The notes beneath the pieces are model-generated. The model saw only the letters and a list, made by a program, of their open reading frames with translations. It did not search any database and was not told where the DNA came from. A stretch of 28,376 nucleotides of DNA from a virus: positions 1 through 28,376 of the IMG/VR virus record IMGVR_UViG_3300021375_000122. One strand, 5' to 3'. Position numbers and translations under genes: made by a program. Of this stretch, positions 6,397-14,284 are shown piece after piece; within the stretch, counting starts at the first letter, position 1, and the number at the start of each line of letters is the position of its first letter.

Positions 6397-6722
6397 TGGC
6401 TAAGCTATTAGAAACGAAACTTCCTGTAGCTATAGGACCTATTGACCCTGCGATATTTAATCGGTTAGTTAGAATATTAGAACTAAGTTTAAACAGAGTA
6501 AATGTAGGCTCTACTATAAACGTTAATGAGTCTCAACGAAATATAAACCAGTTTAATACAGGCGATATTATTTGGAATTTAACTACTAAACAACTCCAAC
6601 TATGGACAGGAGAACAATGGTCAGATATTTATTTAGGAACAGAAAAAGGAGTTCAGGGAACTACGACTCTTGGACAAGTAAGCGTTTCAACTGGTGGAGA
6701 CACCCTAGTAAAAGTATTATAA
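6396..6722 (+). CDS. Small tail-module hypothetical protein (108 aa)
   Basis: It starts on the last base of the upstream stop (TAATG), so translation is coupled to the gp10-like gene. The N-terminal half is helical (IDPAIFNRLVRILELSLNRV). The second half has beta-type segments with the pattern GDIIWNLTTKQLQLWTGEQW, reminiscent of short virion-surface or trimerisation modules. It has no signal peptide or membrane segment. It lies between the tail protein and the endolysin. It is probably structural, but no family is recognised. Confidence 0.7.
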   Translation: MAKLLETKLPVAIGPIDPAIFNRLVRILELSLNRVNVGSTINVNESQRNINQFNTGDIIWNLTTKQLQLWTGEQWSDIYLGTEKGVQGTTTLGQVSVSTGGDTLVKVL

Positions 6723-6733
6723 ACGGAGGTAAT

Positions 6734-7180
6734 ATGAATTTAACGAAGTTACAAGAAGAATTAACTTTTGATGAAGGCTGTATAGATAAAATATATCTAG
6801 ACCATTTAGGTTATCCTACTTTTGGTATAGGTCATCTAATACTAGAAACAGACCCTGAACATGGACAAGCTGTAGACACACCTGTCTCTAAAGAAAGAAT
6901 AGACGAATGTTTCAAAAACGATATACAAAACGTTATAAACGATTTAGATAGAAACTTGGTTTGGTGGAAAGATTTACCTGAAGATTTACAAAGAGTTATG
7001 GCTAATATGTGTTTTAACTTAGGTATTACACGTTTATTAAAATTTAAAAACTTTTTATCAGCTATGGAAAATAATGATTGGGATAAAGCAGCGGTAGAGA
7101 TGTTAGATAGCCGATGGGCTATACAAGTAGGTCCTAGAGCGATAAGATTGAAAGATAGAGTTTTAAAAGGACAACTATGA
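6734..7180 (+). CDS. T4-type lysozyme (endolysin), GH24
   Basis: The product is a 148-aa muramidase that cleaves the glycan strands of peptidoglycan at the end of infection. The start chosen is the ATG at 6734 behind GGAGG, because a start further upstream (6602) would overlap the previous gene by 120 bases. The catalytic triad of T4 lysozyme (E11, D20, T26) aligns at E14, D23 and T29 in FDEGCIDKIY, LDHLGYPTFGIGH. The C-terminal half has the typical RRVMANMCFNLG-like helix and DSRWAIQVGPRA. It has no signal peptide, so export needs a holin. Candidates are the small membrane proteins at 4157, 4312 and 8222. It overlaps the next gene by four bases (ATGA). Confidence 0.93.
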   Translation: MNLTKLQEELTFDEGCIDKIYLDHLGYPTFGIGHLILETDPEHGQAVDTPVSKERIDECFKNDIQNVINDLDRNLVWWKDLPEDLQRVMANMCFNLGITRLLKFKNFLSAMENNDWDKAAVEMLDSRWAIQVGPRAIRLKDRVLKGQL

Positions 7181-7831: not shown

Positions 7832-8215
7832 ATGGCTAAAAAAGCACCTGATGCGTTTGTATACAACGCAACGTTAGAAAGGATAGTAGATGGAGACACT
7901 TTTGACTGTTGTCTCGATTTAGGTTTTGATGTTAAACTACATAAACAAAGAGTTCGTCTTTCTGGCATTGATACCCCAGAATCTAGAACTAGAGATTTAG
8001 CAGAAAAGAAATTAGGTCTAGCCGCAAAAGAAAGATTAAAAGAACTTTGTACAGGTAAATTTAAAATAAAATCGTTAGGTAAAGGCAAATATGGTCGTAT
8101 TCTTGGCATACCTTATACTGAAGACGGTAAAGATATTTGTCAAATGCTTATAGACGAAGGTCATGCTGTTGAGTATCATGGAGGTACAAAAACTAAAATC
8201 TGGGGAGATTATTAA
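7832..8215 (+). CDS. Staphylococcal-nuclease-like endonuclease
   Basis: This 127-aa single-domain SNase-fold enzyme cleaves phosphodiester bonds in DNA or RNA with calcium. The start is the ATG directly after the previous TAA. Catalytic residues are present: the VDGDTF loop (D20, D22), R42 and E50 in RVRLSGIDTPE (matching R35 and E43 of staphylococcal nuclease), and R89 in GKYGR (R87). It has no signal peptide, so it acts in the infected cell, perhaps in host DNA degradation or in DNA processing, alongside the small basic proteins encoded upstream. The family is certain; the role in the phage cycle is inferred. Confidence 0.9.
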   Translation: MAKKAPDAFVYNATLERIVDGDTFDCCLDLGFDVKLHKQRVRLSGIDTPESRTRDLAEKKLGLAAKERLKELCTGKFKIKSLGKGKYGRILGIPYTEDGKDICQMLIDEGHAVEYHGGTKTKIWGDY

Positions 8216-8221
8216 TCTCTT

Positions 8222-8572
8222 ATGGATAGTGTTGTCCAATTAATCAATGAAGTAGGTTTTCCTATAGCGGCAGCTATAGGTCTGGGTATGTTTATTTGGA
8301 AACTTATAAACAAAATTATCGATGGTATGGAAACAAAAGTAGATGTTTTAGATGAAAAGGTATCTGCTCAGATATCAGAAATAGAAGCAAGATTAGGTCA
8401 AAAACTAGATTCACAACACGGTATATTAGTAGCACTTATAGACAGAGTTAGGTCGGTGGATAATGAGATAATTAGACAAGATACGCTTTTAAAGACTATA
8501 CTAGGAGTACCACAGCTTATGCATACTGACAGGTTAGCAAAAGCTGATAGAGATGACCAAAGGAAGGATTAA
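8222..8572 (+). CDS. One-TM coiled-coil protein (116 aa), holin-like
   Basis: One hydrophobic segment at about residues 9-27 (EVGFPIAAAIGLGMFIWKLI) is followed by a long coiled coil (about 33-90, with METKVDVLDEKVSAQISEIE). The hydrophobic segment resembles the BhlA/UviB-like small holin group, but the coiled coil is longer than in that group. The Shine-Dalgarno is weak: GGGGAG at 8202-8207 is 14 bases before the ATG. A spanin-like or membrane-anchored scaffold role is also possible. It lies just upstream of the curli-type cassette, and its last base overlaps the next ATG. Confidence 0.65.
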   Translation: MDSVVQLINEVGFPIAAAIGLGMFIWKLINKIIDGMETKVDVLDEKVSAQISEIEARLGQKLDSQHGILVALIDRVRSVDNEIIRQDTLLKTILGVPQLMHTDRLAKADRDDQRKD

Positions 8573-8757: not shown

Positions 8758-8768
8758 GAGGATTGGTT

Positions 8769-9263
8769 ATGGGAGCACGAAGAACACCTGAAGAAGAAAA
8801 AGACAAAATAATTTGGGCTGTTTTATTTATAGGAATCTGTTTGATTATAGGTATTTTTGTAGAAAATATTAGAGCAGACCAAATAGTCCACAAGTTTAAA
8901 TCTCCTAGTTTTAATGGAGTAGGAACATCATCTCATTATCTAACAATAGAAAACCAAGAGTTTAGTCGTAAATTAACAATTAAAGAAGAAATAAAAGCAC
9001 TACAAGAAGAAATAGAAAGAGAAAAAGAAAACTCTACACTTGCTAGATTTATGCGTAATCTTGAATCAAGAGTTTATGCTGAGTTATCAAGACAACTAGT
9101 TAATAACCTCTTTGGCGAAACACCTTCTGATTCAGGTACAATAACTTTAGAAGGAAACACCATAGAATACACAAGTGATGGTGTAACATTAACTCTTAAA
9201 ATAACGGAAGCCGATGGAACAGTTACTGAAATTACGATACCTATTGGTACTTTTACTTTCTAA
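8769..9263 (+). CDS. csgF: CsgF-like curli secretion accessory protein
   Basis: ATG 8769 is chosen because AGGAGG (8756-8761) has seven-base spacing to it; the TTG at 8763 would leave one base. The 164-aa protein has 13 charged residues, a hydrophobic segment (about 14-31) and a possible cleavage site after IRA (residue 36). Mature-like residues 37-60 match the E. coli CsgF N-terminus: KFKSPSFNG aligns with the FRNPNFGG motif that plugs the CsgG pore. The C-terminal DGVTLTLKITEADGTVTEIT matches the CsgF end. Odd points are a charged helical insertion (about 69-90) absent from E. coli CsgF, and the longer N-terminus. In E. coli CsgF couples the CsgG pore to the curlin nucleator. It overlaps csgG by 50 bases. 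The family call is strong; the function in phage is inferred. Confidence 0.85.
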   Translation: MGARRTPEEEKDKIIWAVLFIGICLIIGIFVENIRADQIVHKFKSPSFNGVGTSSHYLTIENQEFSRKLTIKEEIKALQEEIEREKENSTLARFMRNLESRVYAELSRQLVNNLFGETPSDSGTITLEGNTIEYTSDGVTLTLKITEADGTVTEITIPIGTFTF

Positions 9264-10050
9264 TTGTTCTACATTAGACCAAATTGAAGATACGTACGAA
9301 CATAGGTTTCAAAGACACAATGTAGTAAATATACAGGATTTACAATCTTCAGCCTTACTTGCAGTTGATATTCCAAAAGTTAGTCCTGTAGTTGCTGTTT
9401 ACCCTACAGCGTTTACAGACCAAACAGGTCAGCGTAAATCTAATTCTGAATTCGCTTTATTTAGTACCGCCATAACTCAACAACCTAACGCATTACTTAT
9501 ACGAGCATTAAAACACGCTGGAAACGGTAATTTCTTTAGAGTAGTGGAACGAGTTGGTTTAGATAATCTCACAAAAGAAAGACAACTTATACGTTCTGCT
9601 AGAGAACAATTTGCTAGTGAAGAAGAAAAGAAAAAACAATTAGCTCCTTTATTATTTGCAGGTATTTTAATTGAAGGTGCCGTTATTTCATATGAGGCTA
9701 ATTTAGAGTCGGGAGGTGTTGGTGCAAGATACTTAGGTATTGGAAATAGTATTCAATACAGAGAAGACAATATCACAGTTAGTCTTAGAATGGTTTCTGT
9801 TGCTACAGGAGAAGTATTATTAGAAGTTTTAAGTCAAAAAACTATTTTTAGTTATGGTAAATCTAATGATGTTTTTAGGTTTATAGAAGCTGGAACTGAG
9901 CTAGTAGAAATAGAGTTAGGTAATGCTAGAAACGAGTCTTCTACTATAGCTTTAATGAAAGCTATTGAGGGGGGTGTGTTAGAAATAATTAAATTAGGTT
10001 ACAAAAAAGAATACTGGGTTTTACAAACAAAAGAAAAAAGGGTAGAATGA
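9214..10050 (+). CDS. csgG: CsgG-like curli outer-membrane secretion channel
   Basis: This 278-aa lipoprotein has signal MEQLLKLRYLLVLLLSNC with lipobox LLSNC (Cys18). Alignment with E. coli CsgG is clear along most of the chain: TGQ...FSTAITQ, DNLTKERQLIRSAREQF, AGILIEGAVISYEANLESGG, VGARYLGIGNSIQY, TVSLRMVSVATGEVL, SQKTIFSY, VFRFIEAGTEL and EVYWVLQTKEK-like end. E. coli CsgG forms a nine-subunit, 36-strand beta barrel that exports unfolded curlins through the outer membrane. The start is forced by the signal; 50 bases overlap csgF in the +1 frame. The constriction loop (about 70-86) is one residue longer than in E. coli and lacks the Tyr and Asn. No csgE, csgD or csgC is nearby. Family certain; use by the phage unknown. 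Confidence 0.93.
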   Translation: MEQLLKLRYLLVLLLSNCSTLDQIEDTYEHRFQRHNVVNIQDLQSSALLAVDIPKVSPVVAVYPTAFTDQTGQRKSNSEFALFSTAITQQPNALLIRALKHAGNGNFFRVVERVGLDNLTKERQLIRSAREQFASEEEKKKQLAPLLFAGILIEGAVISYEANLESGGVGARYLGIGNSIQYREDNITVSLRMVSVATGEVLLEVLSQKTIFSYGKSNDVFRFIEAGTELVEIELGNARNESSTIALMKAIEGGVLEIIKLGYKKEYWVLQTKEKRVE

Positions 10051-10054
10051 GATT

Positions 10055-10786
10055 ATGATGATGAAGAAGTGCATACAGTTTTTGCTATGTCTTGCTTTAT
10101 TTCCCCTGTACGCAGCGGATAACGAAATATACGTAGACCAGTCTGGAACTGGTGCAAACATAGATTTAGAACAACTTGGTATATCTAATATTATCGGTGG
10201 TTTAAACTCCTCTGCAGGGAGTTTAACTGCTTTCAATTTAGATGGTACAAGCATGACTCTAGATATTAATATGATAGGAGCTACTAATAAGTTCTTAGGA
10301 GATATTACCGCAGACAGCTTTACTGGTTTTTATGAGTTTACTGGCGGTACTAATGTTTTTACTATTCAAGTAGACCCAACTAATACTTATGGTGCTGATT
10401 CATCTAATCAAAATGTTCAAGTTACTGGTAGTGGCAACACATTTACTTTAAATCAAGGCACTACAGCACTAGCTGCAACTTTAGACCTAGACTGGATTAT
10501 TCAGGGCTCTAACAACACGGTTACATCTAATATTAATATTGACGGTGCTACAAACTATATGGACATAGACGGTTCAGATAACACAATTAATTATACAGGC
10601 ACAGGTGTTACGGCTTCAGCAGGAGGCTATTTTTACTTAGACCACACAGGCGGACAAAGAACATTTAATATTCAACAACTGAGTACCCAAGACAATGACT
10701 GGCTTAAAATTATATCGGTCGGTGGTAACGCTAGTTCTACTGTGTGTGTTGTTCAAAACGACCAAGGCACAAGCACAAGCTGCTGA
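10055..10786 (+). CDS. Secreted curlin-like beta-repeat protein (243 aa)
   Basis: A short signal peptide (MMMKKCIQFLLCLALFPLYA) precedes a mature chain with curlin-like repeats. Residues 29-45 (QSGTGANIDLEQLGISN) fit the curlin spacing Q-x-G-x-x-N...Q-x-G-x-x-N with one extra residue. Further beta-turn units follow: IGATNKF, TGSGNTFTLNQ, QGSNNTVTSNI, DGATNYMDI, DGSDNTINYT. They share a G-x-x-N core with beta strands, so a solenoid or amyloid-like fold is plausible. The end has Cys231 and Cys243. It sits directly after csgG, where a CsgG substrate would be expected. Three ATGs in a row (10055, 10058, 10061) could start it; the first is used. The last 92 bases overlap the FecR gene in another frame. 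It is not an obvious CsgA/CsgB orthologue, and could be another secreted repeat protein. Confidence 0.7.
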   Translation: MMMKKCIQFLLCLALFPLYAADNEIYVDQSGTGANIDLEQLGISNIIGGLNSSAGSLTAFNLDGTSMTLDINMIGATNKFLGDITADSFTGFYEFTGGTNVFTIQVDPTNTYGADSSNQNVQVTGSGNTFTLNQGTTALAATLDLDWIIQGSNNTVTSNINIDGATNYMDIDGSDNTINYTGTGVTASAGGYFYLDHTGGQRTFNIQQLSTQDNDWLKIISVGGNASSTVCVVQNDQGTSTSC

Positions 10787-11816
10787 TATTGGGGACATAT
10801 CTGAACTAAATGGTTCAGCACAAATAGTAAGAGACAAACCATACGACGCTAATTTAAAATTTGCTATACAAAGCAACGATGAAGCTATAACTAAAGATGG
10901 CAGAATGGCTATTAAGTTTTTAGACGATTCTACAGTCAAACTTACTGAACACTCACAACTTTTAATAGATGAATATATCTATGACCCTGACCCATCTAAA
11001 TCAAAAATGGCTCTTACCTTTGGTCTTGGTACAGCAAGATTTATTACAGGCAATCTTAATAGAATAGATAAACAAAATATAAAACTTAAAACACCTACAG
11101 CAAATATTGCGATAAGAGGAACAGATTTTACAGCTACAGTAGATGAGTTGGGTAGGTCATTAATAATACTTCTGCCTGACGCTTTAGGTTTATCTAGCGG
11201 TGAAATAGAAGTAGTTACTGCTATGGGAACTGTTTTATTAAATAAACCTTATGAAGCTACAACTGTAAGTGTTTTTGAATCAGCTCCTAGTAAACCAGTT
11301 ATTTTAGATTTAACGTTAGATGTTATCGATAATATGTTAATTGTTACTCCTCCTAAAAAAGAAAAAATAGCATACGAAGAACAAGTTTCTGCTAAACAAG
11401 AAAGTATTTTAGATTTTAATGAACTAGACGTAGATTACTTAGAGGTGGATTATTTAGGCGAGGATGAGCTTGAATTTACGGAACTCGATATTAATTTTCT
11501 AGACGTAAATTATCTTGAAGACCTTCTTAATGTATTAGACGCATTAGCTATAGCAGAAGATGAAGATGCTTTAGCCCAAGCTACAAGCACACAAATATCT
11601 GGAACTCTTTTAGGTAAAGACCCAGACACTCAAATAACAGCTTTAATAACTGGAAATGTTATTAGTTTACGAAGACAAGTTAATGAAAGCGTTAGAGTTG
11701 ATTTGAACGGTAGTGATGCGTACACCGTAATTTTGATACAAGACGGAGTATCTAATATAATCAAGGTGAACGGAGGAAGCGATAGTGTTATAACCATTAC
11801 GCAAAACGATGGATGA
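10695..11816 (+). CDS. Secreted FecR-domain protein with curlin-like C-terminus
   Basis: The 373-aa protein has a signal peptide (MTGLKLYRSVVTLVLLCVLF, cleavage likely near AQA, residues 25-29), then a FecR domain (about 32-150: ISELNGSAQIVRD, FLDDSTVKLTEHSQL, GTARFITGN, IKLKTPTANIAIRGTDF). In other bacteria such proteins often pair with CHASE2 cyclases or act in surface signalling. Residues about 225-290 are acidic repeats (ELDVDYLEVDYL, ELDINFLDVNYL) followed by Leu/Ala. The end has curlin-like spacing: LIQDGVSNIIKV and VITITQNDG (residues 347-373). The start lies 92 bases inside the upstream gene in the +1 frame because the signal peptide is needed. The stop overlaps the cyclase start (ATGA), so both are likely made together. 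Family clear; ligand and role unknown. Confidence 0.8.
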   Translation: MTGLKLYRSVVTLVLLCVLFKTTKAQAQAADIGDISELNGSAQIVRDKPYDANLKFAIQSNDEAITKDGRMAIKFLDDSTVKLTEHSQLLIDEYIYDPDPSKSKMALTFGLGTARFITGNLNRIDKQNIKLKTPTANIAIRGTDFTATVDELGRSLIILLPDALGLSSGEIEVVTAMGTVLLNKPYEATTVSVFESAPSKPVILDLTLDVIDNMLIVTPPKKEKIAYEEQVSAKQESILDFNELDVDYLEVDYLGEDELEFTELDINFLDVNYLEDLLNVLDALAIAEDEDALAQATSTQISGTLLGKDPDTQITALITGNVISLRRQVNESVRVDLNGSDAYTVILIQDGVSNIIKVNGGSDSVITITQNDG

Positions 11817-13546
11817 AAAAATTAATAATACCTTTATTAATCATTTTAGTATTACCTTTAGTATTTCAAACAACACCCACAGAAATATTAAAACTTAAAG
11901 TATTCGACACTTTTATAAAAGAACAGCAGCCTTCTGGTAATTTTGTTATTTTAAATATAACAGAAGAAGATGTTGAACGTGAGGGTGGTTATCCTTTACC
12001 TAGAAAAAGATTAGCAGATATACAATTAGAGTTATTAGGTAAAGGAGCTCTTGGTGTTGGTTGGGTTATAAGTTTTCCACAACCTGATAGACTTATGGGG
12101 GATGAGGATTTTGCTAGGTCTTTAGGCTATGCTCCTAGTGTTATCGCTATGTTTGAGACACCTAATAATAAATACCCTAAAACTACAGGCACTGTTATAA
12201 AAGGAGAAGATATTGGTGGTATACTTACACAGGGAGTCAAGGAAAATTTCTACACCTACGAAAATATACTACAAGGAATCGCCAGTGCTCCCACCGAAGT
12301 AGACCAATTAGTTAGACGAGTCCCTTTGTTATTAAGAACGCCTGAAGGTTGGGTAGCTTCTTTTGGTACACAAATATACAAAGCATTATTCGATGTTAAA
12401 ACGTATATTATTTCAACTAATCAAAACGGTATTCAAGAAATAGCTATACGAGGAATACCTCCAGTTAAAACAGATAGTCTTGGTCGTAAATGGATTAGTT
12501 GGGTAGATACACCACAAACTAATTTACAAGAAATGGAAGTAAATGGTAAGTTTGTTTTTGTAGGTGTTACAGCTAACGGTGTAATGCCTCAGGTTGCTAC
12601 GCCTGTTGGATTACTAGAACCGCATAAAATACAAGCTGCTCTTGCAGAGTCTCTTTTAATCCAGGATAGTCCTTATATACCTGATTACGCTTTAGCATTA
12701 GAACTTCTTATTTTTATAGCTTCTGTGGGGCTCGTATGGGCTTTTATAAGCTATTTAGGTATAACATGGGGCGTAAGCTTAGCTTTACTTACGATGGCTT
12801 TAACGGGCTTCTACGGTTATTACACGATATCTATGGGTGTTTTAATAGATGTTACGTGGTCTTTAGTTTCACAGTTTATCGCAGGAGCTATAGCTTTCTA
12901 TTTAAGATTTAGAGAACAATATAAACTAAGACAACAAATCAAAAAACAATTTGAACATTATCTTGACCCACGACAAGTTAAACGTTTACAAAAAGACCCT
13001 AGCTTATTAAAACTAGGGGGCGAAAAAAGACGCTGTACGTTTTTATTTACAGATGTTAGAGGATTTACAGCTTTATCAGAAACGTTATCACCTGAAGAAG
13101 TAACAGTAATAATGAATAAAGCATTAACTATACAATCAAACGCAGTACAAAAACACGGCGGTATGGTTGATAAATATATAGGTGATGCAATGATGGCTAT
13201 CTTTAATGCACCTATGGATTTACTACACCACGAACGGATAGCTGTAGAATGTGCTAAAGAAATACAAGAAAATATAATAAAAGCTGATATTGGTGTTGAA
13301 ATCGGTGTCGGTGTAAATACAGGCGAAGCTGTTATTGGTAATATGGGAAGCGATACACGGTTTGATTATTCAGCTATAGGAGACGCTGTAAATACCGCTG
13401 CTAGACTAGAATCTGCAACTAAAGAAGCAGGTGTGAATATACTTATAGGAGAAGAAACAGAGTTATATTGTGGGTATAGATTAAAAAAATTAAAACCGAT
13501 AAAAGTAAAAGGTAAAGAAAAACCTTTAAAAATATACACTTTTTGA
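11813..13546 (+). CDS. CHASE2-domain class III adenylate cyclase
   Basis: The 577-aa protein likely makes cAMP from ATP. Layout: an N-terminal membrane segment (about 3-19), an extracytoplasmic CHASE2 sensor (about 25-285), three membrane segments (about 295-313, 318-338, 342-363), a short linker, then a cytoplasmic class III catalytic domain (about 405-577). The motifs are intact: metal-binding D414 (FTDVRGFT) and D458 (YIGDAMMAIF), substrate Lys454 (MVDKYIGD), a Ser520 in the class IIIb Thr/Ser position, and Asn527 and Arg531 (AVNTAARLE). Guanylate cyclases would have Glu/Cys-type residues there, so adenylate is more likely. It is coupled to the FecR gene by ATGA. In a phage this enzyme would give the infected cell a surface-coupled second messenger. 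Activity is predicted only. Confidence 0.88.
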   Translation: MKKLIIPLLIILVLPLVFQTTPTEILKLKVFDTFIKEQQPSGNFVILNITEEDVEREGGYPLPRKRLADIQLELLGKGALGVGWVISFPQPDRLMGDEDFARSLGYAPSVIAMFETPNNKYPKTTGTVIKGEDIGGILTQGVKENFYTYENILQGIASAPTEVDQLVRRVPLLLRTPEGWVASFGTQIYKALFDVKTYIISTNQNGIQEIAIRGIPPVKTDSLGRKWISWVDTPQTNLQEMEVNGKFVFVGVTANGVMPQVATPVGLLEPHKIQAALAESLLIQDSPYIPDYALALELLIFIASVGLVWAFISYLGITWGVSLALLTMALTGFYGYYTISMGVLIDVTWSLVSQFIAGAIAFYLRFREQYKLRQQIKKQFEHYLDPRQVKRLQKDPSLLKLGGEKRRCTFLFTDVRGFTALSETLSPEEVTVIMNKALTIQSNAVQKHGGMVDKYIGDAMMAIFNAPMDLLHHERIAVECAKEIQENIIKADIGVEIGVGVNTGEAVIGNMGSDTRFDYSAIGDAVNTAARLESATKEAGVNILIGEETELYCGYRLKKLKPIKVKGKEKPLKIYTF

Positions 13547-13635: not shown

Positions 13636-13739
13636 TTGGAGTAGATAAAAAGACTTATAAGAAAAAAGCACAGAGCCGTTCGGGTTTTGTTATATACTCG
13701 TCTAAAGGAAAAAAGACAAAATCGAGGAGCCGTTTCTAA
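13632..13739 (+). CDS. Small basic protein, 35 aa
   Basis: ATG 13632 has GGAG five bases before it (13623-13626) and the stop overlaps the next gene's ATG (TAATG). The 35 residues are mostly Lys, Arg and Ser (VGVDKKTYKKKAQSRSGF, SKGKKTKSRSRF) with one short hydrophobic patch (GFVIY). There is no recognised family. The tight coupling on its 3' side and proper ribosome site support that it is translated. It could serve as a leader peptide for translation of the downstream cupin-like gene, or as a small DNA/RNA-binding protein. Confidence 0.5.
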   Translation: MVGVDKKTYKKKAQSRSGFVIYSSKGKKTKSRSRF

Positions 13740-14284
13740 TGGCTTTGTCTCTTATTAAAAATCCAGAACTAACTTATCAAGAAGCTTGTGAATTTTTTGA
13801 TTATAAAGAAAATAAAATAAAGTTTCAAAATAAAATAAAAGAGTTTGAAGCAGCTATTACTAAGCACTGCGAAGAAAACAATAATCAAGATTTAAACAGC
13901 CAAATAACAGGTCAGACCGAAGGAGCTGTTACACATAACTTTGCAGACGGTCAATACATAAGAAAAATTGTTATGCCTAAAGGGTTATTAGTTACAACTA
14001 AAATACATGCCAAAAACCATCCTTTCTTTATTATGAAAGGAGAAGCATCTATTTATAGCAATAACGGAGTAGAACGTATAGAAGCACCTTTTCATGGAAT
14101 AACTGAAGCAGGAACAAAAAGAGTTTTATATATCCATGAAGAATGTACTTTTATAACAGTACATAGAACAGATTGTTTAAGTATAGATGACGTTGTAAAT
14201 GAAATAACAGTTGATGATTTTTCTAAACTAAACTTAAAAGGTTTTGATATAGAACAAATAGATAAAATAATGGAGAAAATTTAA
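13739..14284 (+). CDS. Cupin-like phage protein (181 aa)
   Basis: The first ~65 residues are helical and charged. The remainder (about 66-145) is a beta-rich domain with regularly placed histidines: FADGQYIRKIVMPKGLLVTT, KIHAKNHPFFIMKGEASIYS (H90, H94, E102), a Gly-turn, APFHGITEAGTKRVLYIHEE (H119, H133) and TVHRTD (H142). This resembles the cupin metal-binding pattern, and I recall similar proteins in marine phages near structural genes. The role is unknown; structural or sugar-modifying roles have been guessed for the group. It uses GAGGAG nine bases ahead of its ATG and is coupled to the next gene (TAATG). Confidence 0.7.
   Translation: MALSLIKNPELTYQEACEFFDYKENKIKFQNKIKEFEAAITKHCEENNNQDLNSQITGQTEGAVTHNFADGQYIRKIVMPKGLLVTTKIHAKNHPFFIMKGEASIYSNNGVERIEAPFHGITEAGTKRVLYIHEECTFITVHRTDCLSIDDVVNEITVDDFSKLNLKGFDIEQIDKIMEKI

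Follow-up and report, generated by a model that had tools for sequence, protein, structure and literature searches.

A CHASE2-adenylate cyclase closing the curli module of a phage genome, and a counterpart operon in a few Caulobacterales

Previous studies have described adenylate cyclases with a CHASE2 sensor that work with a partner in the outer membrane. In the available text of PMC9239204, most of the CHASE2 cyclases in Campylobacterota are encoded in clusters with an outer-membrane protein that has a FecR domain, and the accessible parts of PMC13001267 report that CyaD1, CyaD2 and CyaK of S. meliloti answer a protein signal via the outer-membrane barrel NsrA. CyaD1 from which CHASE2 has been deleted makes cyclic AMP (cAMP) constitutively, according to the excerpt at hand of PMC5498481. 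In phages, the closest described system is the type VIII secretion system (T8SS, curli) cluster of HTVC023P-type podoviruses and pelagimyophages, for which the passages available from PMC9599517 name CsgF, CsgG, CsgA/B, FecR and adenylate cyclase. The same passages give the cluster an alphaproteobacterial origin with transfer between phage families, note that its modules resemble alphaproteobacterial ones, and state that adenylate cyclase and histidine kinase lie outside bacterial T8SS operons; CsgF and CsgG of pelagimyophages were first reported in PMC7029224, as far as its accessible text shows. The main text of PMC9599517 nowhere uses the term CHASE2. Here we analyzed a CHASE2-class III adenylate cyclase gene (positions 11813-13546, plus strand) in a stretch of 28,376 nucleotides, hereafter the window, which is positions 1 to 28,376 of the IMG/VR virus record IMGVR_UViG_3300021375_000122. 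The gene closes a CsgF-CsgG-curlin-FecR module, which is a further member of the published phage curli cluster (PMC9599517), and we lean slightly towards reading the cyclase as the signalling end of a captured curli operon that would report the state of the envelope or the fibre as cAMP. What is new here, as a comparative result, is the counterpart operon subtype in bacteria.

The cluster in the available text of PMC9599517 (HTVC023P-type and HTVC008M-like) has the same gene order as the window, where a curlin-like gene takes the place of CsgA/B, and the backbone of the window is related to that of HTVC023P and HTVC027P; the window, however, is a different phage, with a holin-like gene and no kinase match before CsgF. 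As in the window, a CHASE2-cyclase closes the CsgF-CsgG-curlin-FecR module in the Pelagibacter phage HTVC008M (AGE60353.1) and in Melnitz, whose cyclases are 35% and 31% identical to that of the window, although both phages have a second curlin gene between FecR and the cyclase.

The cyclase reading frame is open and intact from its ATG start and encodes 577 residues. Pfam recognized CHASE2 at residues 11-302 (E = 4.4e-24; 85.9 bits against a cut-off of 26.3) and Guanylate_cyc at residues 406-574 (E = 1.2e-20; 74.3 bits against a cut-off of 21.9), so that the complete CHASE2-cyclase proposed in a preliminary description of the window was borne out. Hydropathy predicted one transmembrane segment (TM1) at residues 4-22 and three more (TM2-4) at 294-312, 312-330 and 343-361, giving the order TM1, CHASE2 (about 21-290), three membrane segments, a linker helix and the catalytic domain (about 401-577). 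CHASE2 thus sits between TM1 and the later segments, N-terminal to the enzyme, as in a receptor cyclase, and this placement suggests that CHASE2 is extracytoplasmic and the catalytic domain cytoplasmic. In an AlphaFold2 model built with 38 sequences (mean predicted local distance difference test score, pLDDT, 88.9), the cyclase domain superposed on CyaC (1wc1; Z 25.3, root mean square deviation 1.7, 175 residues aligned) and on CyaB of P. aeruginosa (3r5g; Z 25.0, 1.6, 174 residues). These two and Cya2 (2w01), all of class IIIb, are the closest solved relatives; they have the catalytic fold in common with the phage enzyme (Z about 25) at 29-37% identity, and the class IIIb assignment of the preliminary description therefore stands as IIIb-like. 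No CHASE2 structure was found among the 50 structural matches listed for the model (VIA-align).

The other genes of the module precede the cyclase on the same strand. CsgF, the curli assembly factor (8763-9263; Pfam CsgF, 4.5e-16), is followed by CsgG, the curli outer-membrane pore (9214-10050; Pfam CsgG, 3.8e-46; NCBIfam PRK15184.1, 4.7e-51 but below its cut-off), a curlin-like secreted repeat protein of the CsgA/B kind (10055-10786) and a FecR-domain protein of 373 residues (10695-11816; Pfam FecR, 2.1e-9). The curlin-like gene has no Pfam match of its own and was linked to curlins only via relatives: an open reading frame in L085, a probable phage contig of a metagenome-assembled genome (MAG), matches the window protein (6e-101) as well as the annotated curlins of Melnitz (2e-11) and HTVC008M (1e-10). 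CsgG starts within CsgF (50-nt overlap, 9214-9263) and FecR within the 3' end of the curlin-like gene (overlap of 92 nt, 10695-10786), so the operon is tightly packed; the FecR stop also overlaps the cyclase start in a shared ATGA. The FecR-domain protein has an apparent N-terminal signal sequence (judged by eye), the FecR domain, a long linker modelled with low confidence and a C-terminal phi-x-phi-x-Q motif. This motif was present near the C-terminus of all 59 complete FecR proteins; among 651 open reading frames of at least 150 residues, 73 ended in it, namely 70 FecR proteins, two unassigned proteins and one CsgG. The next gene after the cyclase (13739-14284) matches short tail fibre or adhesin PHROGs (7.6e-26) rather than any effector.

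To compare viral loci, we took from each scan the 80 that best matched the proteins of the window, near-copies included. The complete module was found in the same order in 39/39 loci whose sequence extends 3.4 kb or more upstream of the cyclase, and FecR preceded the cyclase in 55 of the 56 loci with at least 1.3 kb upstream. Starting instead from CsgG, both FecR and the cyclase lay downstream in all 55 loci with at least 3.6 kb on that side. The distance from the FecR stop to the cyclase start was between -3 and +2 nt in 60/71 loci, the exceptions being seven with an insert of 449-987 nt and four in which the start could not be placed. The cyclase is thus almost certainly a functional unit with the curli module, the association with a neighbouring surface system that had been suggested beforehand; a stand-alone auxiliary gene is ruled out by these obligate partners. 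The preliminary description had also called such enzymes rare in phage genomes. This is true of isolates, where 9 of 50,697 records had a match (six covering at least 80% of the query), but not of uncultivated marine viruses, in which 596 related stretches were counted.

The carrier is a phage: virion, lysozyme, helicase and primase genes surround the cyclase, and the bacterial contig artefact considered in the preliminary description is ruled out by the virion and replication genes on its flanks. The virion protein is 33-36% identical, over at least 92% of the query, to those of HTVC027P, HTVC023P and 023Pt_psg01, and the helicase 46-57% identical over 99-100%, placing the window phage near the HTVC023P type in sequence. 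A SAR11 host is only likely, because phage DSL-LC04, for which Gammaproteobacteria are given as host, is about equally close in both proteins.

A search of 84,980 species genomes with a profile of the phage cyclase gave 10 loci. Three of them, one in Hyphomonas on a 705-kb contig (L091) and two near-identical ones in Caulobacteraceae (L088 and L094), carry CsgF, CsgG, curlin, FecR and a CHASE2 cyclase in the same order as the phage, among ordinary bacterial neighbours (TonB receptors, FAA hydrolase, glycosyltransferase, amidohydrolase). Their cyclases share the domain order of the phage enzyme and 33-36% identity over the protein, but have a C-terminal extension to 688-691 residues against 577 in the phage, and their genomes hold 4-7 matches each to the cyclic nucleotide monophosphate (cNMP)-binding domain. 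A Devosia locus (L093) has the FecR-cyclase pair without csg genes. The remaining six (L085, L086, L087, L089, L090 and L092), from MAGs labelled Pelagibacter, Neomarinimicrobiota, Maricaulis and Flavobacteriaceae, have curli modules of the phage type and probably represent phage DNA that was binned wrongly, judging from gene content, identity to phage proteins and contig size.

For comparison, ordinary alphaproteobacterial curli loci were sampled from 249 genomes of the order and 289 of the class, which gave 31 csgF loci above the cut-off (those of G007 itself were excluded, and a match in G274 below the cut-off was dropped); about 5-18 kb was read around each. CsgF and CsgG occurred together in 31/31 and a FecR or cyclase match in 0/31, an absence that is weak at a few loci because the regions are short (L231 spans 5 kb, L233 starts at the gene and L227 reaches 0.7 kb past CsgG). 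A CsgG tree was built from 51 sequences, one of the 31 ordinary loci having failed the length cut. In it, the CsgG of the phages and of the three cyclase-linked bacterial operons were split from the 30 ordinary ones by a branch supported at 99/97, with a long-branch warning by the program. This grouping supports the view that there is a curli subtype bearing the cyclase and that it moved as a unit. In the cyclase tree, the cyclases from the three bacterial operons group with those of the podoviruses only weakly (26) and on very long branches, and therefore do not tell from which side the transfer came. Our literature search, which covered texts other than figures and supplements, turned up no account of a bacterial curli operon with FecR and cyclase.

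If the cyclase is the signalling end of the module, CsgG and CsgF would form an outer-membrane pore exporting the curlin-like fibre protein, and the FecR-domain protein, apparently secreted to the envelope, would be the likely periplasmic partner of CHASE2. A change in the state of the pore or the fibre would reach the dimeric cyclase by way of CHASE2 and the membrane helices, and the enzyme would make cAMP from ATP within the infected cell. FecR is chosen as the partner because its adjacency to the cyclase is conserved, and by analogy with the Campylobacterota and S. meliloti, the phage enzyme would be under the control of FecR, perhaps along with CsgG and the fibre protein. In the available texts (PMC9239204 and PMC13001267), a CHASE2 cyclase and an outer-membrane or FecR partner form the sensing unit in those bacteria, as they may in the phage; these passages, however, mention no curli, and the Campylobacterota clusters add a phosphodiesterase and a TPR protein. 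We regard FecR as a somewhat probable input partner of CHASE2, whereas the proposal that curli or envelope status is the signal itself is more tentative, a possibility that we would not favour on its own.

Several observations weigh against this scheme. In one viral locus (L061, 1-1622), the cyclase lies directly 3' of what looks like a gene for a DNA cytosine methyltransferase, and upstream there is no match to FecR. Among the 30 best alphaproteobacterial cyclase homologues, FecR lay within 1.5 kb in five; one of these is the Hyphomonas locus described above, and at least three of the others have the two genes on different strands, so the FecR-cyclase link is not general in Alphaproteobacteria and such a general pairing is weak as an explanation. 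The model of the FecR protein is poor outside the FecR domain (mean pLDDT 57.2), and its C-terminus, convincing by eye as a curlin repeat, must be taken as a motif only, because a hidden Markov model of curlin C-termini failed to separate phage FecR from shuffled sequences. Finally, a cNMP-binding domain that could receive the signal was missing from 88/98 Pelagibacter-order genomes and from all 21 phage records, several of which are fragments.

The position of the module suggests another function. A lysozyme gene (6602-7180, plus strand; Pfam Phage_lysozyme, 5.2e-10) lies upstream, and directly before CsgF is a holin-like membrane or coiled-coil protein (8222-8572, plus strand; PHROG 4898 holin, 2.1e-5), which precedes CsgF in 38/38 loci with room for it. 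At what is apparently this place, the available text of PMC9599517 has a histidine kinase; the window gene matches the holin PHROG and no kinase family. Between the lysozyme and the curli module is also a small SNase-like nuclease (7832-8215; Pfam, 2.4e-13), homologues of which occur near the module in many loci. Being in or beside the lysis region, the module would presumably be expressed late, together with the lysis and virion genes; a promoter scan gave no signal (28 sites against 28.0 expected). The CsgG pore might accordingly help to open the outer membrane or dissipate gradients, with the cyclase reporting envelope damage and timing lysis, and a lysis role for CsgGF in Melnitz is proposed in the text at hand of PMC9004378. 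A lysozyme homologue was present in all 26 loci of at least 12 kb, and lysozyme, a 159-residue membrane protein or an Rz-like protein in 76/80, and in many loci the cyclase is followed by genes matching endolysin and Rz-like spanin PHROGs. Nevertheless, the curlin-like gene and FecR have been retained everywhere, although a simple pore could do without them, and the surroundings of the module in HTVC008M and Melnitz include ssDNA-binding and baseplate genes but no annotated lysis gene within the stretch. We consider a part in the lysis programme unlikely, although less so than the other alternatives.

The cyclase might also be a passenger, brought in along with the operon and without function in the phage; the bacterial counterpart and the lack of an evident receptor would fit this. 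Its active site argues otherwise. We compared 83 phage proteins (the window, the 80 viral loci, HTVC008M and Melnitz), which are not 83 independent observations because several of the 80 loci are near-copies. D414, K454, D458 and R531 were each conserved in 83/83 and N527 in 82/83, while position 520 was T in 44, S in 38 and D in one (T or S in 82/83); the Melnitz cyclase, of 683 residues, has D at 520 and S at 527. We take these positions to be the two metal-binding Asp, the transition-state Asn and Arg, and the Lys and Thr/Ser pair of base recognition. The residues that the preliminary description had listed as in place are therefore kept, across proteins with identity down to about 31%. In sequence alignments, the guanylyl cyclase Cya2 has Glu and Gly at the positions of Lys454 and Ser520, whereas CyaB has Lys and Thr. 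Since Lys454 stands where Cya2 carries Glu, ATP rather than GTP is the expected substrate, in agreement with the adenylate-type enzyme first proposed, and a guanylyl cyclase is unlikely. From these residues, the phage enzyme is very probably an active ATP cyclase. The ratio of nonsynonymous to synonymous substitution rates (dN/dS) in five pairwise comparisons was 0.05-0.14 for the cyclase part and 0.13-0.23 for CHASE2, values that are approximate because dS was mostly near 1, and these indicate purifying selection on both parts at the sequence level. Together with the retention of the cyclase in all 55 CsgG loci with room, they make a passenger quite improbable.

An active enzyme with ATP-type residues could instead act through a CRP-type receptor of the host, resetting host carbon metabolism as the preliminary description envisaged; the accessible part of PMC9599517 cites CRP-cAMP control of csgD in E. 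coli. The cNMP-binding domain is scarce in the likely hosts, however, being found in 10/98 genomes of the Pelagibacter order by the same search that detected it in 58/76 alphaproteobacteria and 10/14 control genomes. These genomes (1.0-1.6 Mb as drawn; four loci from them have 28-29% GC) are labelled by the order grouping of G001, the MAG that yielded L085, and the counts are limited by a host that is only likely, by the sensitivity of the domain model and by MAG completeness. Nine of the ten positive genomes had one match each, at 27.7-29.2 bits; the tenth is G001, which is possibly contaminated and whose two matches are counted among the positives. The matches sit in long proteins, and neither of the two that were read is CRP-like, L095 (from G001) combining the domain with ABC/C39 and L096 with an acyltransferase. 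The L096 gene (919-3264) has like genes in other genomes of the order, the fusion occurring in a few of them, and its cNMP domain, judged by eye, appears to lack the usual phosphate-binding cassette. By comparison, the four bacterial carriers of the operon or of the FecR-cyclase pair have 4 to 10 cNMP matches each. The only class III cyclase among the 98 genomes was on the phage contig itself. The scarcity of the domain in this order and in the phage records makes a CRP or carbon-metabolism role unlikely, and we rate its probability as very low. In the likely hosts, phage-made cAMP would then meet no standard receptor, though selection appears to keep the active site.

The cAMP-gated effector that had been suggested as an alternative target was likewise not found, nor any Pyc effector, among the Pfam, PHROG and PADLOC matches of the window's neighbouring genes. 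A Pycsar-like pyrimidine cyclase acting on a defence effector is highly improbable: PADLOC PycC models do match the phage cyclase (best 1.5e-27) and the gene after the bacterial cyclase in L088 (12491-13084) is a PycTM-type Pycsar effector (Pfam, 8.8e-25), but the same PycC model is not specific, since it fits the CHASE2 cyclases of Devosia and Hyphomonas just as well (1e-25 and 3.5e-26), other genes occupy the PycTM place in L094 and L091, none stands beside the phage gene, and the solved sequences matched at E 0.001 are named adenylate or guanylate cyclases, nucleotide cyclases or related.

Returning to the cyclase as the signalling end of the curli operon, a wider and rather speculative view, to which we give a minor chance, is that there exists a self-sensing type of curli with a built-in FecR-CHASE2-cyclase circuit, common to a few Caulobacterales and marine phages; in hosts without a CRP-type receptor, its cAMP would have to act via an undescribed receptor or outside the cell.

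Little thought has been given to phage second-messenger enzymes that carry their own envelope sensor; among marine viral contigs, this one is common. The most interesting point is that the active site is under selection while the standard cAMP receptor is not evident in the likely hosts. If the enzyme is active, a lytic phage would equip streamlined hosts that seemingly have neither cyclase nor receptor with a pore for secretion, a fibre and an enzyme reporting on it through cAMP, which raises testable questions about the purpose of phage curli and about a non-CRP cAMP receptor in SAR11-like cells. The bacterial counterpart operon offers a laboratory route to these questions, as the Caulobacterales relatives may be worked on without Pelagibacter.

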